DNA from: Branchiostoma floridae
Taxonomy: Eukaryota; Chordata; Leptocardii; Amphioxiformes; Branchiostomatidae
Assembly (NCBI RefSeq): GCF_000003815.2
Contig: NC_049979.1
Coordinates: 9,508,267-9,572,266, forward strand
DNA: 64,000 bases
Reading direction: 5' to 3'
The position numbers were made by a program, and so were the translations under genes. The notes under the pieces were generated by a model, which saw only the letters and a program-made list of their open reading frames with translations, had not been told where the DNA came from and did no database searches. Below, piece after piece: positions 9,950 to 62,500 of the stretch (the stretch's first letter is position 1; every line of letters starts with the position of its first letter).

Positions 9950-22752
<12,803 letters not shown>

Positions 22753-28371: not shown

Positions 28372-31300
28372 TTACTCTCTCCTTGGTCGCCGTCTGGAGC
28401 TCCCATAGTCAAAGTCACCACTCATTCTGGACCTCTTGACCACCTGCACCTGCGACTGCGCGGTCAGCTGCAGCTTGATTGCACTGGCGTTCAGCTTCCC
28501 CGTGGAGGTCAGCAGCTCCTTCAGCCCCTTCATCTTTGCACTGGAGAACTTGACGATCGGGAGGGGAGGCATGGGAACCTTGAATTTGTCATCCTCCGTC
28601 GTACCGAGAACGGGCGCGGCATTGCCCCGACTCGCGGCGTCTCCCTGGCCCTGCGATGTCTGGAAAGCCATCTCTGCAGGGCTCTCCGCTTTCAACACAG
28701 ACTCCATGGTCATGCCCGGAAAGGGGTTGCCATTGGACCGCTGACTGAGGAACTCGCTCACGTCGGGTCGGGAGTCCGCCGTGCGCGTGGCGAAGGGACT
28801 ACAGCTGCGCTCCAGCCCCCCCAGCAGGTACTCTGGGTTCAGGATGTTCTCCCCGCACTTGGCCGCCAAGTCAGCAATGTTCGGGTGTGGCGCCTCGTTC
28901 TGCGAGTCCGGGTCCACTTTCGAGGCCAGGCTCTCAATAGTGGACAGCAAGGTCTCATTGGTTAACCTGGTATTGCCACTGTGCTCCTGTCTGTTCTGTG
29001 AATCTGCCTTCCCTTTCCCCTCCTTCCCCTTCAGCACTACCCCATTCTTCTCACCTTTGCCTTTTGCGATGGCCCTACTGCCTTTTGACCCACGACCTCT
29101 ACCTTTCTTTGGCTCCTCCTTCTCCTCTGTCTTACTTTCTTCTTTATCTTTGTCCTTCTCCCCTTCCTCCTCCTCTTCCTCTTCATCTTTTAACACTTCC
29201 CCTTGATCTCCTATTAAGAGGATGTTCAACTTTGACCTGACTTGAGGTGAGAAGCTGTTTATAGATTGCACAATGTGCTTGGCCCATCCAATGTGAAGGA
29301 CTGGCGTTGAGCTCCCTTCTTCCCATTGGCAGATGCCGTCGTACAACTGCAGCAGGTAAGCAAAACATTCTGGGTCATTCAGCAACGGTGACAGTGGTAC
29401 TGCCACTGGGGTGGACCGTCCGTTTGACTTCTCTGAAGAGTCGTCAGTGCTGGAGGCGGGAGATAGCGCAGGTGACTGCAAGGTTGACAAGCTAACCGAC
29501 TTCAGCATGTTTGGAATGAGCTCGTGAGCGATCTCAAGGAACTCCTTGTAAATTTCTTCATCTTCACGGTTGTAGTTGTAGCTATGGGCCAAGAAAATGA
29601 CACAATGAACTGGCTTTCTTGTTGCCATTTTATTCTGAAAACCATTTCTAAACATTTCATCTCGATACCAAGAGACAATCACCACCAAAAGAAGAACATT
29701 TGATCATGTCACACCATCTTATCACAGACTCAACACTTACCTTCTGATGACATTAGCTGCTTGAGCCCAGCAATGAAGAGCATCTTTGAACTGACCACGC
29801 CTGAAAGCAATAATTTCAGAGTTAGGAGATCCTGTGCTCTAACATGGGACAATGAAGGTACATACAGATATTCAAAAGATACAACCACCATTCCACCAAC
29901 AGTAAGTGTGTGAGGCAGCACATGTATATAATGACACAAAAGGTATTCAAAATATTTGGACCATGGTAAGAAAGCCTACCTGTAATAGTGGCCACCAAGG
30001 TATGTATATGGGTAGACATGCTGGTTGTTGTAGTACACCTTGCCAGCATGGATACCTTCATGGAACAGCTGAATAGGAGGTGGTTTGTCTGGGGTGGGGT
30101 CGATCTCCTCTAAATCAGCCAGGTTCCCCAGAGCCATGGGATACCTTTCAGAGGAAAACCATGAAAAATGAATCACATACTGGAGACGCAGGGCCAACCT
30201 GCTTCAGATTTGTCCAGTTCACACAATACGTCTTTGTGTAACTGTTGATACATTGACTTGCAGTTGAAATGGTCTAAATTTCAACTCTCTTTGAAACATA
30301 AATGCCTTCCATGAATATTGCTTATTTAATTTATTAAAAAACAGGTAACAACACACTCACCTATGGGACTTTTGCATCACCTGGGTGGCTACAAATGTTG
30401 TGTGCTTTAAGAATTAAGATGACAAAATAGGGTAAACAAAAGAAGGAAGTCTTACTTTCGTAGATGCCCCATCTCATACAGCAACCAAAGCAGCTCCTAT
30501 AGTGGGAACAGGACAAGTGGCAACGTCACAAGTAGGTCACAGATAGTAATGCTCACTGCTGGATACATAGTTTAACTTTACTAAATTGTACACAGACAGT
30601 GTGGCTGAGATTCAGTCAGAGTAAGGTTAGTTAAGTCCCTGACTTGCCCCTACCTATAACCAGTGCCAAATTTGGCCAGCTGGTCTATAGAGCCCAAACA
30701 AGTGTCTGTACAAAGACGTACCTGTTGCAGTGATGCCATCTCAATGCTGTCTGTGTGTGAGTCTATGGATGGATTGATGGCTGACACCATGGCTGCCACC
30801 TCCATGCTCCTGGTACACTGCACAGGAAAACCATACAGATACAGCCAGCTCTTCTCCGCCACACCCACACTGATGGGCTGCCCTCTCTTGTCCTCGTTCC
30901 CCTTCCCGTGCCAGGTCACCTCTGCTGTCTCTGCACCCTTGTCCCCAAAGGTTACCCAGGCATGGTCTTCAGACAGGGCCAGGTGGACATCCTTGTAGCC
31001 GAGCACCTGGCAGGCAGCGACCACAGCAAATGCAACCCCGAAACAGTCCAGGCGATTTCCTATTAACACACAGGAACAAATGAATCAATATTACAAAAAC
31101 AAAAACTACAAGTCAACTAACAATCCATAAATATCACCTCCCCAAAGAACTATGATGGGCATAATGACATTAAAGCAAACTGAATCCAGTTCAAATCCAT
31201 CATCATCATCATCATCTCTCTTCGTGCTATGTAATGGTAAACAATTACACAAGTAATAACATACAACAGCCAAAGGGACCAAACATAGAGTCCCTTTTCT

Positions 31301-33080
31301 GTTCCCTTTTTTGGCAATAACTCAAAAGGCATATTGACCAAGTGACTCACAATGTAGAATACATTTGACTTCGGGCAGAGAAGAGGATGAGTCAGTCATG
31401 CCCATCAAGTTTTTTTTTTAAATCATCGTCAAAGATGATCGTCACCAGCATCTAGTTACATCCCATCTCCATTTAAGTCAGCTAAGGTGTAAATCTGAAG
31501 TCTCCAAAATGTATCTAGCTTCCAGGTCAAACATAATATACATACACATACACCATGTACACACAGACACGCATGCTTTTTTTTTTCTTCATCAGCTTTT
31601 ATTACAGATAATAGTCTATTACAAAGTCAGTTTAAATTCAATGGATTGGCACGTGGTGATTTATTGACACGTTATAGTAACGTTACAAGTCTATAATTTA
31701 GCCATTTACTGCGTGATTGTACCTGCCTATTTGCACATTATCACTGAGGAAGTTACCCATCACGCTTTGTTAGCACAGTTCCTCGGCAACCTATCAGAGG
31801 ACATTAACCAACCAGCAACCTCACTTCCAGTTGGCAAATGGCATACTTGGCAAACTTCCAAGACATCAGGTATGTAAAATTGTATAGTCTGGGCAGATTG
31901 AAATGCAAATAACGGACAGGCGTGCTATTTCCGCACAGCAGGACAGAGGCCGTGGCACCTGGTATGCATGACATATGAGGCCTGTTTATTGACACTTTGC
32001 CATTATTACGAGGTGAATTGTCCAAAAAAAGTATGGCAGGGTGCCTGTCGTACAGCTCTCCACTTACATGACCCCCTGAAGTGATGCATCAAGCATAGCC
32101 AGATGGCCATGTTGGCTGAGATACATGTTGGAATACAGATGTAAACAATGACTCTCAATTGGTATGTGTACTATGCATAATGCATGTCAAGGTACACTGA
32201 CTCAGAGTCCTACCTTGCTAGAAATTGGCTGGTGATGTCATCAATGAATCATGGGCTGGGTCTAATTACATGCAATAAATAATGGGAAGTCCCTACCAAC
32301 TTGCATGACAAATGAGGCACAGATAGAAGGAAACCAAATGTTCCCTCTTAGGCAGGCCATGACAACCGCTGCTTATGTACAGTTTTGTGTCTACCAATTT
32401 CCATGACAAGCATGAAACCGTTATGTTAACCTACTGCCCCACATTTGCTATTGTTATGAATCATCAGGTAACGGTAGCGAAAACGCACTGGTTTGGAACA
32501 AATGACATAACAGACAATGTCAAGGCACTATGAGTTCGGCATACCGCTGCCATGGCTCCATTTGAAGAACTGACACCCCCTCTAGCAAATCCAGTGCTGG
32601 GTAACGCCCCCTGCCCCCCTCCCCCTTGGTGCCATGCATGCGCATGTCGTAAACAACGGCAACGTTACCTGTGAGATAGCTGTAGAGGGACTGCAGATGC
32701 GCTCTGTCGGTATGGTACGACCGTGACAGCGAGCTCCATATCACGTCTGACACCTTTTTGACGAGGTCCCGTGTTGCCACCCCGTGCGTGAACAGGCTTA
32801 GATCGACAGACCCTTTGATCTGACAGACGAACTTGTGGTACAGAGCCTCCACTGGAGCCAGCTCCACTACCGGGAAGATCGGCTCCAAATTAGCCCCGCT
32901 ATCTACCTTGTTTAGAGCCCTGTTGTTGGTCAGGACATTCTCAATATACCCCAGGGTGACAGAGAGCAATGCAAGATTGGGCTCCACGCTGCATGACAGT
33001 TGCGATCGAAAGAGTTCCACGACGGATTTTATGTCCTGCAAAGGGAAGTGGCGTTTATCCTCATCTCGAAAGCCCGCCAT
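28372..33080 (-). CDS. MEN1: Menin, nuclear scaffold of MLL/KMT2 complexes
   Basis: Six coding exons: complement(28372..29581, 29741..29800, 29980..30144, 30456..30496, 30722..31059, 32669..33080). Phases close to give 741 residues (human about 610). Strong family blocks: [94 protein letters not shown], then EDEEIYKEF and [20 protein letters not shown]. Menin binds the MLL/KMT2 N-terminus, LEDGF and JunD in the nucleus and acts as a tumour suppressor in mammals. The extra length lies in the last exon: an acidic/Lys-rich linker (poly-Glu then GRGRGSKG) and a Ser/Pro-rich stretch. The C-terminus (from about residue 685) is conserved ([21 protein letters not shown]) and basic, likely the nuclear localisation signal. 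A 41-nt micro-exon (30456-30496) carries [11 protein letters not shown]. Start context is CAACATGGCGGG. It is divergent from CLPTM1. Confidence 0.96.
31060..32668 (-). other. Menin intron 1
   Basis: The 1.6-kb intron (GTAACG...TTAATAG) contains a (CAT)6 microsatellite at 31198-31215 and otherwise no recognisable feature. Confidence 0.6.
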
Positions 33081-33603
33081 GTTGAGTGAAATTGCTCACT
33101 GCGTCAGCGCGCGCAAAACTATTCGAATCAACGGCACAGTCTACTTGACAAAGTGGGGGTGATGTTACTTAGCTATTCACAAGAAATAAATACAACAATC
33201 TCTTGATCCTTGAAATCAGCTCGATTATTGTAGGAATTCTTTATTTCTATAAGCTTCTTCCATTGATTTCACTTATATCTATTCTTAGAATTACTTTGAT
33301 TCTTTGAACTTTTCATAAGTTACACGTTGACAACCGTATGATCTGTTCCGAACAAAAAGTGACCAATAAGAGGACATCTTCATCCAGGCCATGACGTAGC
33401 ATGCAATTTCGCAACAGAAACTGCAAATCATGGCTACCTCAGCGGATGAATCATAGTCGTCTAGGTTTCTGACCTTTTTAAAATCATTCCTGCGTACAAC
33501 ACTCTTCCACATAGGACGGAAATACCCATTTTCTCTGGGATTAATTCATGCAACATCGTCTCGTGAAATCACTCGTATTCACGCGAGATCTTGAAATTTA
33601 AAC
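33081..33603. promoter_or_regulatory. Bidirectional promoter between MEN1 and CLPTM1
   Basis: The two start codons face away from each other 523 bp apart. CpG-rich stretches lie next to each start (GCGCGCGCAAAACT near 33107; TTCACGCGAGATC near 33579), with an AT-rich centre. Both start codons are embedded in YY1/TISU-like contexts: CAACATGGCGGG on the - strand at 33080 and AAACATGGCGGAC at 33601-33613 on the + strand. No TATA box is evident. TISU elements direct scanning-free initiation on mRNAs with very short 5' leaders, so transcription may start very close to each ATG. Confidence 0.6.
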
Positions 33604-41748: not shown

Positions 41749-41754
41749 TTTATT
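41749..41754 (-). promoter_or_regulatory. Poly(A) signal for the small - strand gene
   Basis: TTTATT on the + strand reads AATAAA on the - strand, 444 bp beyond the stop of the small gene at 42198. It would end that transcript about 270 bp short of the convergent CLPTM1 signal. Confidence 0.45.
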
Positions 41755-42197: not shown

Positions 42198-45100
42198 TCA
42201 GTTAGACAGGAGTAATGCCATCAGTGCCGGCATCAGGACACTCAGCAGGGCTGCTGCAAGGCTGGCTGCTCCGCCGGCTGGAAATCAAAATTTCAGACTA
42301 TGTTTACAATATATGGTACAACATGCATCAGATTTGCGCTAAAGATTTATCTCTACCAAACTGACAACGCTGGCTGTTATAGGGAGAATTTTGCTACCAG
42401 AGGAGTTGGCCGGCTGCGCATTTACCTGCGCATGGACGGACTCCCCTGGCCAATTTCCCGATTCTTCTTGCCCCGCAACCCCATATAGGAAGGCCTGATG
42501 AATCCGGAGGCCAACCAAAGATGTCTAAATTCACAGCAGAGATGGCCGATATTCCACTAGATAGTTATTTTTACGAATCTTCCGACAAAAAATGCCACTC
42601 TCTCCTTTATTTGTCACATAGAATCACCACAGTATCTATGGATTAGAACTGCATGGGACATCGCTTAGATATATATACCTGGTGCAGCTGTCGTCCCTGC
42701 CATGGTGTTGTTCATGGTGGTGGGGCCCATTGCTGAAAATGTCGAAAACATACTCAAGTAGTGATCGCTTTACAATTGTAGTAAGATATGCTCGTAAGGA
42801 CTTTCTTAATAAAAGGCTGCTTATTAGGATCGATGTGATGCATTCTATAATACAGTAGAAAGGTTTGCCGCATCCGGACAAAGTTTGGCGACGTATGCTT
42901 GACATAATGGAAACTTATACTTCGAACTCTCAAACTGACCGTACAATTTGTCAAAACATATAACTTCGGTTTCACAAGAGCTATCAACATCAAACAACAG
43001 TTCTGCAGCACCTGTATTTGAGTATAAACGTCATCGTACTCACTTGTTTGCGCTTCTACTTCAACTGCACATTTCGTCAGGAATACCGCAAACACGACAG
43101 CAACGATGAAAGCCTGCAACGGTAGTCATATATCCATAGTTTATCTATACAAATCTACTGAAAACATCACATAATTCTGTACATATATTTTAATACAGCA
43201 GTTCTAGAGCTGTGTACCTTACATTTCCTCATCGATAAAGGTACCTGTGACCCGGTGTGCTTGGCTAAAACGTGAGCATTTGCAAAGCGGATATCCAAAA
43301 CTTGTCACGCTTCGTCTCAAGCATCATCAGTGCGTCTCGAGTTTGACCGGCCTTTTGTCTGGCTTAGTGGATCAGCGAACGGATTATCATACGAAGATAA
43401 CGTCCATTAACCTCATTTATCCTTTATTTGATGTCAGTCGAAATCAATATCCGGAAGGCTGACTACAGCAGTCTGCGAAGTGCGACTTTTTTTGTGGTTG
43501 CCGTCGGCACTACAAGCCCCAAGTCTACCTAATAAAATCTTAGTGGTCAACGTCTCCTTGATAGCTCTGTAAATACTGTTAAACAACCTGAGCAATCGAA
43601 GAAAGCTTTGAGACCATGCGTCAAGTGCTAGCCTGGTATCCAGCGGCATTGTAGCTCCCAAGTCTCTTCCGTCCTTGTCGCTATCAAGTGCTGAGGACCA
43701 CCCATTCAGAGACAAATATTGGTAGCAAGGAGAGCAAACGATGACTTTGATACGAGAGGCTACGGTATGCATATACAGACTGAAGAATATAGACAAGAAC
43801 GCGTACAAGATACAATTTCACGGATTCCCAGAAAAACTCCATAGACCACTCTAACGTTATATGTGTAACGTTATATGTTGTGCCTTAGACGCGGAGTCGA
43901 AATATCGCTGTTGATCTGTGGCTGTTGATGTTCATGTACAAATACGATAACGATCTTTTAAGAAGGAAAGAAAACAGAGGTGAAACAACAAGATCAAATC
44001 CCTATTCCAATATTTGTTCTTTCTTTTGTTATATTCAGATTATCAAATGGGTTTTCCGGATGCCGCGCGCGATATAGACGCCGTGCGGCTTTTCAGCGCC
44101 AGGAAACCTGATGCTAACAATAACAACTTGAGTCGGGAGACTGTAAACCTTTTCTTGTTACCTGAGGCAGACGACTAAAGTACAAGAGCCTTTTTAGGCA
44201 TGGCATCTCGTTGTGTAAACGAAAGGTCTCGAAGGACATGCGCTGACGTCAACCTACAACTTCGTTAAGGGGCAATAGTAGATCCGTCTCGGGGTCAAAT
44301 AACTTCCCTGTTTCCCAAAACCTTGCCAAATTCTACCTGAGCGCTGCTGGTATTCATCTGCTTCATTAAACGGTGTGCTATGCACGGGCTCTTATAAAGA
44401 TAGCCGGTCAGGTTCTGGTGGATTAGATTGAAATCAGTATCGAGTTACGCCAAGGAGGTTCTTTTTTACACCTTGTTCCAGCAGGTGTTCTGAGACGCAG
44501 ACCGCCATCACGGCAAGACCGCCAAGCACAAACACCGTCACTGCCACGCGGTTTTCGTCGGAGTTAGATCTTAGATTTCTCGTGGTCAGTGGGTATCGTT
44601 CGCAGACTTCGGGAGTGAGGGAGGAGCGCTGATTCACGATTTTCAACATGGACTTAGGTTCTCTGTGCTGGCAAATCTAGTTTTCCCCCCTCCCTTTCCT
44701 AGCACAGAGCACAGCTTATGTTCACCATAAAATAGTGAATGGGCGTTCCTAAAAAAAGATTAATAAACGCCGCCACTCTGGAAGTTTGCGAAGGAAGATT
44801 GAAGATCGAAGGAAGGTTGTTCACATGGTGCACGTTTATTGCAGACAGCAAACAATACGTGTATTCACTACCGCTACCGGCACAGGCAGTATTGGTCTTC
44901 TACTGGAACTAGATGAGAAGCTAGTTAGGCCACGTGTACACATTCATCAAAGTCCCTCCAGTAAATGCTGTTAAAACGTAGGTGTCCTGATCAAAATAAT
45001 TCTATAAACATGATAGCGTAATTCTGTCTTTATGGTCAGGTGGTTTGTGGACTACTCTACAGAAGGGAAACCCAAATAAATCCAACATTTTTTGCCTCGA

Positions 45101-45241
45101 GCTCGAGTCCCCAGCCAAAATGATTCCCCACTTTAATAAGGAAACTTCTTTGAGAGAACAGCGCAATGCTGAGACAAACATTATCTCGCCAAGATATTGC
45201 CTCTTTATACTTTGACATGTTTCACTTACCTTTGCGAACAT
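42198..45241 (-). CDS. Predicted 71-residue secreted GPI-anchor-like glycopeptide (novel small gene)
   Basis: Four short exons can be joined: complement(42198..42277, 42679..42732, 43044..43113, 45230..45241), 216 nt with stop. Each boundary has a good site: AAG|GTAAGT, TTGCAG|G, CAA|GTGAGT, TTTTCAG|C, CAG|GTATAT, TTTCCAG|C. The product starts MFAKAFIVAVVFAVFLTKCA, a signal peptide with cleavage likely after VEAQ. A tiny Thr/Met-rich ectodomain follows (TMGPTTMNNTMAGTTAAP) with one N-glycosylation sequon (NNT). It ends in a small-residue GGAAS patch and a hydrophobic tail (LAAALLSVLMPALMALLLSN), the layout of a GPI-anchored peptide. Overall architecture resembles vertebrate CD52/CD24 mini-glycoproteins; I claim no homology. 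Intron phases are 0, 1, 1. Alternatives: a single-span mini-protein, or a chance assembly of exons. The 2.1-kb first intron contains another possible N-terminal exon (44472-44649). A CRE lies upstream. Confidence 0.5.
44472..44649 (-). CDS. Possible alternative first exon with signal-anchor helix
   Basis: This - strand frame opens with ATG at 44649 and encodes a basic, polar stretch of about 35 residues and then a strong hydrophobic helix (VAVTVFVLGGLAVMAVCV) ending SEHLLEQ. A donor-like G|GTGTAA at 44472 leaves it in phase 1. That is the phase accepted by exon 42679-42732 of the small GPI-like gene, so the two could be spliced to give the same ectodomain with a different N-terminus. Read through without splicing, the frame stops at 44434. 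There is no homology I recognise; it may be non-coding. Confidence 0.25.
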
Positions 45242-47224: not shown

Positions 47225-50200
47225 TCAGGGTTTCACAGCTGCCTTGACTGACTCAGGCATCCTGCCCAGGTACCAGTCATGATCGCTGTACGTGGCCAGG
47301 ACACCTCCAGTGTTGGGGTGCTTCACATCCCTGTGGTACTGCAGGGCGTTCCCGTGGATGTCCGTCAGCTTGCCCCCCAGGGCGTGGAGGATGGCTTCAG
47401 GTGCACAGGTGTCCCACTTCTTGCAGCCAGGTGTGGCAAACACATACGCATGAGCCTTTCCTTCAATAACTAGCAGCACCTGTAAATCATGATGAGACAG
47501 TCTTGGCATGACATGCTGTTGTAATGCATCAGTGAAGGTTAGTTAGACATCCAGGTAATAAGATACACAATATTCAGATTTACTCAAGCAACTGGACAAG
47601 TTTAGTTAAAAGTTATCAAAACTAATCATATGCTTGAGTGACTTTTGTATTGTGTATGCTTGTGTAATGTTTTGCAAAAAAGTTACAAATCAGTAGAATT
47701 TTTTTTAGGATCAATGAATAGTTCCTATCCTATGTTACACCTTACAGTAGGTACACCCAGGTTTATGAGTGACAACACAATCAGTGTCATTGTCTCCATA
47801 CCTTGTGCCCAGCTCCCCCCACCCTCAGGACTTCATCAGGCTGCATGGCCTCTATGGACTCTGTCACCAGCTTGTTGGAGTGGGATCTAAAAACATCAGA
47901 TGTATCCATGTAATAATATATATAGAATGATGATAAAGATATGTCAATGAAGGTCTGTCATCCATGTAATAAGATACACAGTAGAATAGTTACTCGAGCA
48001 ACTGCTGAGATTTCATAAATGGTCAGAAATTTCAGATAAAATCCACCATCTTTCTTCTAGAAAATCTAATCAGTTGGCTGAGGAACTTTCGTGCTGTGGC
48101 TGATACAGGTAAACCATACACAGGTAAACCATACACAGGTAGTATGCAAATCTCTAGGCAGATTTACCAGTGGCATAAGATAGTATCAATAGCTTGACAA
48201 GAAGTATAGCCATCCAAAGGTAATCAGCTAGCTACTGGAAGCTATAACTCCCTTTAGCCAGTCATACTCCTTGCCCTTGGCCAACCCTGATACTATCTTA
48301 TGCCACTGGTAAATCTGCCTGGAGATTAGTATTATGCTACCATACCAAATCAAAAATACCATGTGACAGGGCTTTCGCCAGCTCGGAATTTTTTTCCGTC
48401 AGCCAATTCCAATTGTCGCAAAAACCACAAAAACCACGATTAGAAGGACTGAACTGAGACCTTGAAAAACGGGTTTTAATGAGATTATAGTATGCGAAAG
48501 GGCGCCGACACACATTGTCAGCAATCAAAACAATAGCAAAACAAACAGTGTGTGGCTTTTATGGCCATGGACGGCGTCCCCAAGCCGCCTGTAGCTTCCA
48601 CCAAGGATTTTTGTCCGTCAAGGTTGACAGATTGGTTTGAAAATTTTTCCGTCAGACGCAGCAAATTTCCGTCAATTGACGGAAAAACGGACGCTGGCTA
48701 GAGCCCTGCCATGTGACCCAAAAAGTCCAAAGAAAATTTTTGAAAAGCATTAAAAAAACAGGACACTGCCTTAGCCTCTATGTTATGGCTGTGCCTTATT
48801 TTGAGTTTGAGAAGAGGGAATCTTGACAAAAGTACCAATTTTCATGACAGGTCAGACAACAGTGTACCTGGTGGTGGTTACAATCCTTTTGTCAGCAGGC
48901 GGAACCAAACGCTCCACACCAAATGCTCCCAGTCCAACAATACCCCACATGGTACGACCAAGAGTCGCTCCTGGACCAGCCTTGTAGTTGTAGTAAGGCT
49001 GGTTAATGACTCCTGCCACTGCCTTCCCATTCACAGCCACACCTATCAACACTGTTACATGGTCCAGGAAACCTAAGGAGGAAAATAACAAGTTTTTATT
49101 GTCATCACTGGATCGTTGTCTTCTTTTTTCTACCTTATTACATTGCCCTTGAATATTACATCAAGATTTGCAGAGTCATATCATGGCTTGTTCCCCGTCC
49201 ACAAAGTTCTTATGACTTAAAATAATCATACATGTACCAGTAACAGTGAACATATCCTATAACCAAGGACGTTATATAACCAAGCACCTTTAAAAACAGA
49301 ACGTGTCAAGTACTAACCTTCTGTGTATTCCTTAGTACCATCCAGAGGGTCCACCCATACGACCACCTGTGTGAGGGACATGCCAATGAAAATGAAATGA
49401 TTAACACCATCTCCTTAGCTTGCTGTGGTCAAATCTTCATGCAACAGACCTCCTTTTTATCATCTTAGAGGAAGGACAAAAATGTTGCATACCAACTTTA
49501 CACCATCCGCCTCAAAATCAAAACAGTAATTGCATCAAGGCCTTAAGTACATGTATGTTATTTTGGGGTAACTGCTGGTGCCATAGCCTGTTATCTATAC
49601 TTACATCTTCATCCTTAACAGCCTGGAGGTCTTGAGGACAAACTGCTTTCAACACCTCCTCTGACAACCCAGTCTCCAGGTGTGACTCATCCACTACCTC
49701 ATCTGTTGGCTCCTTAACAGGAAAAATACAAGACAAATAAATGAGGGAGAAATAAAGAGAAAAGTTATCAGTTGCCAATAGACAAAAGAATACAATTATC
49801 AACACTATTATGCAAAATGAAATTAAATTCTTTCTCTCCTTACAATATCTGGCAACACTACACAGTTAGTTTTGCTTCCATTCAAAATCTAAGTTGTTTT
49901 GAAAACTATAATACTATGAGTGTTACTTAATGCAACTTAGTCATATAATAGTTATATGAATAAGTTGCAATGGTCCTGTATGGAACACAAACCATGTACT
50001 ATGGGAAAAAAATGAAAGTATTTTTCATGTCTCACCTCCTCTCCTATGATGGTGACCTTAGGGAACTGTCTGGACAGTGACTGTACAATACACTCCTGAG
50101 CAGAGCGGTCAGCCTGGGTCTGCAGGTCGTTTTTCCCTCCCTAATGAGAAAAAGAGAACTAGAAATCAGAAATGATAGTAAATTGAAGAGCACTTCAAAC

Positions 50201-59500: not shown

Positions 59501-62500
59501 TTTCGTTACAATAATTATGCCTTTTTTTATTTCTAATTGATGATGTCATTTATACAGTAATTGTACATTATTTATAACATCATTGATGAAATAATTGTTT
59601 TTCCCATGCATTCTGTAGGCCATTAAAGCCATCAGATGTTTTGTTGACAGCTTGGAAAAAGTTTCGGAGGACCCAGAAATGTTGGCAAAATTAGGTGAGT
59701 ACTTTTTATTTTGTTTGCTTGTTTGAAGTCTAGTTTTAGTTTCTAAGAAAGGCTTTGACAGTCAGTTTATAGTTTGTATTGCATGCAGCTACAGGCAAAG
59801 CAACCTTTGTTGAATTATTATACACACATGTACATGTACTTACCAATTGTCATAGTAACAGTCAAAACACAAATACCACTTCAATTGACTTCAAGTATAC
59901 TTCTATGTGTCAAATGAAAATAGTAATTCTTGTGGCACCAACCACTTGTTTCCCGGTACAGAGAGTGAAGTGAACAGCCCAGGTACCACAGACAGCAGTG
60001 CAAGTGGCTGGACAGGATGGGCTGTCACCGGGGTGAGCTCGCTCACATCTAAGCTGTACAGGGGAGGCAACAAGCCAGCTCCAACAGCACCGGGCACACA
60101 GCAGCCACCTGGTGAGAATATCACTGGCTAACGTCTCCTTCCACTGGATGGGAGTTGTAGAGGAACTAAGAATTAGATTTGTATGATCACGGTATGATTG
60201 GAAAATGATTTAAGATGTAAAAGTATGATTGAAAATTGGCAAAATCCACATAGCGTACAAAATGCACAAAAAATCAATGAGATCTAAGGAACTACTAAAT
60301 AAATTAGTTGCTCCAAAGGCTTCTTGATGGCCACCACATGAGTGGAAAGCGGGTATGAGTGAGATATTTCATTATCATAACTTAAGAATGTTGCCTTGGG
60401 ACTTCTAAAACCAGACAGTCCTTGTGTCAACAATTTTGCTTGTTGTGAAATAACTGGATTTTAAAAGGCTTGTTGTGAAGCAACCAGATTTTAAGAGACG
60501 CAATACATAGTTCTGTTATCCCTAATGTAGCAAAGGCACCCAGTGCAGAGCCAGCACCCAGCCAGCCAGCCAACGCCCCAGTAAGCACCAGGCAAGAGCC
60601 TCAGGTAGAAGTAGAGGAGGAGGAGAGGGACTCTGATGATGGAGGAGGATGGGACAATGATACAGAAGATTGGGGCAGCATGGAGGTGGGTGATCCATTC
60701 AATGGCACAAAACTGGATTTTTACTCAAAAGGCCATTGATAGATTTATCCTACTTGCTGCTTTAAGTTGTTGTCAGTAACAAACACATATTTGCTATGTT
60801 CAAAGGTGTCTTGGACACTTAAATAGGCTATGTAACTTTGCACGGCTACAACAATGTATGATTTTATTGTGCCTACCTGCCTTCTTGTTAGCATTCAAAT
60901 GCAAGATGCATTTGAATTTTGGTAACAGCATTCCATTGGTTCAACTGAAATGTTCTAAATAGCAAACCTTAAAGTTAATACATTGTAGCACAATTATTCT
61001 TCTGTTTATGGTTTTAAAATTACTCAAAACAGCTTAGTGAGAACTGTCTGTAGCCCCCATGCATCAGCAAAAGATACCAGCGAATGAATGATTGAATGGT
61101 TGATTGTTTGAAAACAACCAACCTTTTGGGTTTGTTCTATAGGACTTCTCAGCCCCCAAACCCAGGGAGCCTGTGCAGAGATCTCCGCAGCTGTCCAGAC
61201 CAGGAAGTACCGCTGTACAGTCAGGCCCTGCAGACCCTGAAGACGAGATCTGGGCTGAACTCAAGGGGACAAAACAAGCTCAGAACACCATGGAGGTTTG
61301 TGTGGTCATCCCTTTTACAAAACAGTTTCATATGTGTTTTGTTGCATTGTTGAGTCATGTAAGATCCCAAACTGGGAATAGGAATTCCATGCACGCTTTT
61401 AGGCAGCCCGTTTAGCTAGCTGTACTAAGATTGTCAAGTTACTTAGATCGTCCTGAATGCAGTTTGACAAGTATGAAATTGTTTGTTTTTTTCTGATACC
61501 AACAATGATTAAACATGGGCAAAATTTTAGAGCACCTTAGTCTTTACACTTGTTTTATTGGAGAACAATGTATCATACAGGTTGATTTGGTAGACCAAAA
61601 GCCAAACTGTTTGGATGAAAAATGATGTTTCATTGCTATAGGATGACTTTGGTACAGAAGAGGCTGAAGGCTGGGGAGATGATGATGCTTGGGAGGACTT
61701 TGATGTACCCAAAAAGGTAACTTTAAAGTTATTGTGCTCAAGTACCATTGATAATTTGGTATACTTAGTAATTTTCAATTTTGCAAATCACCTAGTGAAC
61801 GAAGCATTGAATGTCAATCACAACATGTCGGCTTCTTTGTATAGCTTGTTCACATAATTAAATGATGATAAAATAATGATTCACAAATAGTGAATATCCA
61901 TACAGACAATATACATACTGGTAATTGCTAAAAGTACAGAAGCATCTTGAGAGTGAGCCCCATTCTGTTAGCATCCTGCTGGATGCCACTTGCATTACTG
62001 TGCTATGACTAATGCCTGCCCCTCCATGGCTCAGTCCTGAGGACATCTTGGCCTTGGTACAGGATCAGGGCAGGTTACAGCCGCTACAGCTGGGTACTTT
62101 CTACCCTGGGTCCGGGGACTTTCCACCAAGCAGAGGAGAGAAACTTGTTCTCAGTGTGTCGCTCAGAAGCAAGTCTTCATGATGCTTCATATGATTCTGT
62201 CTTTAATGCACTCCTTATAAATGGGCGTTATCTTTGGTCATTTTTGCTTGTGGGAATGAAGAAAAAAGCCTATTTTCAAATTTACCTGTTAACTCTTCTA
62301 CTATGAGGGAAAAACTTCTTGAAGTCATTACTCACACTTTTAGAAATTTTTTCTAGCCATATATGAGCTTATATCACCATTGCAGACACTGTAATGCTAT
62401 ATCTATATTTGTAACATAAATTATGATAATGACCTGCCTCATTAACATAATTACCCACCATTCCTACAGGCATCGGCCCCATCCAACAACCCGCCAAAAC

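Follow-up and report, generated by a model that had tools for sequence, protein, structure and literature searches.

Does the minus strand of the 64-kb stretch of amphioxus DNA analysed here (the window) carry a real gene built from four very short exons, or have splice-like sites merely fallen into line? The initial annotation had proposed that exons of 12, 70, 54 and 80 nt join in phase on this strand into a 71-residue precursor. The lengths and the three named junctions proved exact, and the joined coding sequence (216 nt) translates in a single frame, with intron phases 0, 1 and 1, into 71 residues and a stop. The features, in window coordinates, are as follows.

45230-45241, minus strand: coding part of exon 1, 12 nt, ATG plus three codons (MFAK), phase-0 donor AAG|GTAAGT
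43114-45229, minus strand: intron 1, 2116 nt, GT-AG, phase 0
43044-43113, minus strand: exon 2, 70 nt, hydrophobic core of the signal peptide and cleavage region, ending in phase 1
42733-43043, minus strand: intron 2, 311 nt, GT-AG, phase 1
42679-42732, minus strand: exon 3, 54 nt, symmetric (1-1), bulk of the mature Thr-rich stub with the sequon N35-N36-T37
42278-42678, minus strand: intron 3, 401 nt, GT-AG, phase 1, containing a dispersed repeat
42198-42277, minus strand: exon 4, 80 nt, 61% GC, cleavage region of small residues, then the hydrophobic GPI-type tail and the stop
41749-41754, minus strand: AATAAA, a candidate poly(A) signal by motif only, ~440 nt 3' of the stop

The nearest ATG upstream of exon 1 is 230 nt away. 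The three longer exons were recovered by tblastn within the window at E 5.7e-8 or better, all remaining rows having E 2 or worse. Exon 3, the mature exon, is flanked by phase-1 introns on either side, and no other 1-1 exon lying between exons 1 and 4 passed the splice thresholds. The translated product has the layout that had been described for it, a precursor made almost entirely of a signal peptide and a GPI-type tail, with a Thr-rich stub and one sequon. Its N-terminus is short, with one Lys, and leads into the hydrophobic core and a cut site of the V-E-A|Q type. Residues 26-47 hold seven Thr and two Pro, the single sequon being at N35, and the C-terminus consists of a G/A/S-rich stretch, 18 mostly hydrophobic residues and a final SN. 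Depending on the choice of the two signal cut points, the stub is ~15-30 residues long, a range that includes the 20-25 residues suggested earlier for the mature peptide.

Splice-site strength was scored with a generic, vertebrate-like matrix. On this scale, the scores in bits were 8.46 (donor 1), 5.17 (donor 2) and 1.99 (donor 3), with 1.84, 3.43 and 2.85 for the three acceptors. Donor 1 is near-perfect (equal-strength sites, 0.025-0.047 per kb) and donor 2 is good (0.25-0.38 per kb). Donor 3 is weak (2.3-2.6 per kb of strand) and the acceptors are average (1.7-5.5 per kb; weakest acceptor, 4.3-5.5 per kb). The earlier description of the splice sites as good thus holds only in part.

Coding signal was measured with a codon model whose training set, 1540 codons, came from eight open frames in the window (six Pfam-matched, one unmatched, one unscanned). 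The joined coding sequence scored 13.5, the background averaging -7.1; of 20,235 open background stretches, 6.7% scored at least as high. The exons were also compared singly with 3000 such stretches: 0.4% of these reached the score of exon 4 and 4.5% that of exon 3, and the score of exon 2 was ordinary (reached by 41% of background stretches). Exons 3 and 4 are thus supported by codon usage, which is neutral on exon 2. The remaining two sense frames of the joined sequence contain six and two stops; one of the three antisense frames is open throughout, and openness of the joined frame by itself therefore proves little.

We asked how often such a structure would arise by chance. GPI-tail and signal-peptide exons were detected with home-made rules (for the tail, an acceptor leading into a short last exon that encodes a GPI-like tail), and the rules for all chance controls were fixed after the candidate had been seen, which favours the candidate. 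By these rules the two strands of the window contain one GPI-tail exon, the candidate itself, and 400 strand-kb from 20 other genome stretches (200,000 bases, of which 8,583 are N) also contain one, whose tail is weaker and whose acceptor is better. Signal-peptide exons numbered five and two on the two strands of the window and 20 in the 400 strand-kb elsewhere. For simulated sequences, chaining of a tail exon to a signal exon was allowed directly or via one middle exon. Order-4 Markov sequence (60 Mb) yielded 153 tail exons, of which nine were chainable, with seven distinct stops between them. Order-5 Markov sequence (420 Mb, one strand) yielded 1108 tail exons, of which 53 were chainable, 47 of the 53 giving 50-100 residues; from this control, ~0.016 chains of any quality are expected per 64-kb window, both strands counted. 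A GC-rich Markov control (54% GC, 160 Mb) gave 10 chained exons out of 234, none equal to the candidate at both ends. Under the cut rule of the simulations the candidate stub has a T/S/P value of 0.286, itself below a threshold of 1/3. With stub T/S/P at or above 1/3, four of the 53 order-5 chains and two of the 10 GC-rich chains passed, none with a sequon. The order-5 set was rescored with the candidate's own T/S/P value replacing 1/3, and the GC-rich set was scored at 1/3 alone; at the candidate's level, eight of the 53 order-5 chains passed, one of the eight with a sequon. None of the 53 was as Thr-rich as the candidate, one was as strong at both ends, and none combined ends, stub and sequon. 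A chance origin of the mini-gene structure is judged unlikely, although the rules were set post hoc.

These observations bear directly on the possibility that splice-like sites have aligned by chance and that there is no gene. The weak donor 3, the ordinary acceptors and the ordinary codon usage of exon 2 speak for such an accident, as does the one simulated chain in 420 Mb that equals the candidate at both ends; against it stand the small number of chains expected per window, the absence, among the 53 simulated chains, of any that equalled the candidate at both ends and also in stub and sequon, and the codon usage of exons 3 and 4. We regard it as an outside chance. It is very improbable that the gene is real but its small product, secreted or in the membrane, lacks a GPI anchor, the tail acting as a transmembrane helix or the signal peptide staying uncut. 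GPI signals have a G/A/S-rich stretch before the hydrophobic tail and no basic residues after it; here a G/A/S-rich stretch precedes the tail, and the chain ends two residues beyond it (SN) without basic residues, although 18 hydrophobic residues are nearly enough to span a membrane and GPI attachment is itself a prediction from sequence. The same pieces might also belong to another gene model, in which exon 2 continues into intron 2 (ORF 42754-43125) or extra exons are used. From stop to stop the read-through frame spans 123 open codons, but the read-through part scores -24.5, a non-coding-like value that 86% of open background equals or exceeds, and no further 1-1 exon lies above the thresholds, which makes such a model exceedingly improbable. 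We consider it likely that the locus is a genuine protein-coding gene, with no second copy within reach of the searches, and that its product is a tiny GPI-anchored glycopeptide.

Copies of the mini-gene were sought in the genome (513,431,437 bases in 431 contigs). In these shallow searches neither a homologue nor a paralogue was found: the whole protein, the tail, the DNA of exons 2-3 and the DNA of exon 4 with its downstream sequence each matched this locus alone. The first-stage screen returns very few candidates for queries this short (three were scored for the whole protein and one for each other query), and distant relatives could escape. The mini-gene thus appears to be single-copy as far as the searches reach. 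The dispersed repeat inside intron 3 (~42340-42520) has 39 other scored places genome-wide at 70-89% identity; 440 first-stage candidates were returned for it and 40 were scored, its own locus among them.

For a GPI-anchored glycopeptide, the following path is suggested by the product. Exons 1 and 2 would supply the signal peptide, with A25 (V-E-A|Q) as the probable last residue removed and C19 as a possible alternative. GPI transamidase would then cut at a small residue at about positions 40-50 and attach the lipid. The stub left over may carry O-glycans on its Thr residues and perhaps an N-glycan at N35; once mature, the molecule would consist mostly of glycan held by a lipid anchor. It could serve as a glycocalyx spacer, or as an adhesion or lectin-ligand scaffold, the choice among these being a guess.

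Is this a new kind of molecule? The CD52 gene has two exons, and CD24 is small and has an exon layout that differs from that of the mini-gene. Against Pfam the 71-residue protein matched no family at E up to 10, hence neither the CD52 family PF15116, the CD24 family PF14984 nor the arabinogalactan-peptide family PF06376. When the CD52 profile (PF15116) was run on the genome, seven of nine first-stage candidates matched, none of them above the cut-off and none at the mini-gene locus; with the CD24 profile (PF14984), one of six candidates gave a match, at another locus (C1:23887870-23888004) and under the cut-off. Six of the eight sub-cut-off CD52 and CD24 loci were inspected in the forward frames of their middle 400 bases, and none of the six showed a similar layout. 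The claim that the layout mirrors CD52 and CD24 therefore stands as a statement of design; neither the protein nor the locus matches either profile. Judged by titles and the beginnings of abstracts, the open-access literature yielded no report of an amphioxus CD52-like gene.

CD52 (CAMPATH-1 antigen) is described as GPI-anchored, with a released form of 12 residues that carries one N-glycan and O-glycans, the glycans doing the binding (PMC11982460). In design the mini-gene product resembles it, home-made rules predicting a signal peptide, a very short stub and a GPI-type tail, and the stub having one sequon; it differs in a longer, Thr/Met/Ala-rich stub and in having four exons. CD24 (heat stable antigen) is described as mucin-like, GPI-anchored and heavily glycosylated (PMC5186806). 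Plant arabinogalactan peptides are reported to have precursors that stay below 90 residues with signal peptide and GPI signal counted in, their members usually being without sequence homology (PMC8471777). The mini-gene likewise has a <90-residue precursor with a predicted signal peptide and GPI-type signal; unlike them it is from an animal, has two Pro in residues 26-47 and matches no Pfam family. The small GPI mucins of trypanosomes, which have a signal peptide, a Thr-rich stub and a GPI tail, are multicopy and intronless. The mini-gene is like them in layout, and differs in having four exons and in belonging to an unrelated lineage. The occurrence of the same design in unrelated lineages argues for convergence over descent. 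The product of the mini-gene is probably of a style already known among cell-surface peptides, its likeness to CD52 and CD24 being one of design.

Most of the stub sits on one symmetric cassette exon, and skipping of exon 3 would therefore keep the frame. The result would be an almost stubless 53-residue precursor, which the chaining rules gave as a direct exon 2-exon 4 chain. A more specific proposal, that the product is a lineage-specific chordate glycopeptide filling the role of CD52 or CD24 without shared ancestry, with exon 3 skipping as an on/off switch by splicing, is a long shot.

If expressed, the mini-gene would be a clean example of a class of genes that tend to escape ORF finders and homology searches, because their exons are micro-exons, they contain no domain and their mature part is too short to align. 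Expression would also make it a probable example from an invertebrate chordate with which to ask how frequently minimal glycan-on-lipid scaffolds arise independently.

Upstream of the mini-gene and on the same minus strand lies an inositol-monophosphatase-family gene (47225-49160, two frames Pfam-matched), which we take to be BPNT1-like. Elsewhere in the window, frames of a Menin homologue lie at 28372-33095 on the minus strand (Pfam matches in two scanned frames), and two plus-strand frames have ankyrin-repeat matches (10394-10882 and 18198-19064). An RNase MRP RNA gene is found at 61941-62187 on the minus strand, with a full-length Rfam match of 146.9 bits.
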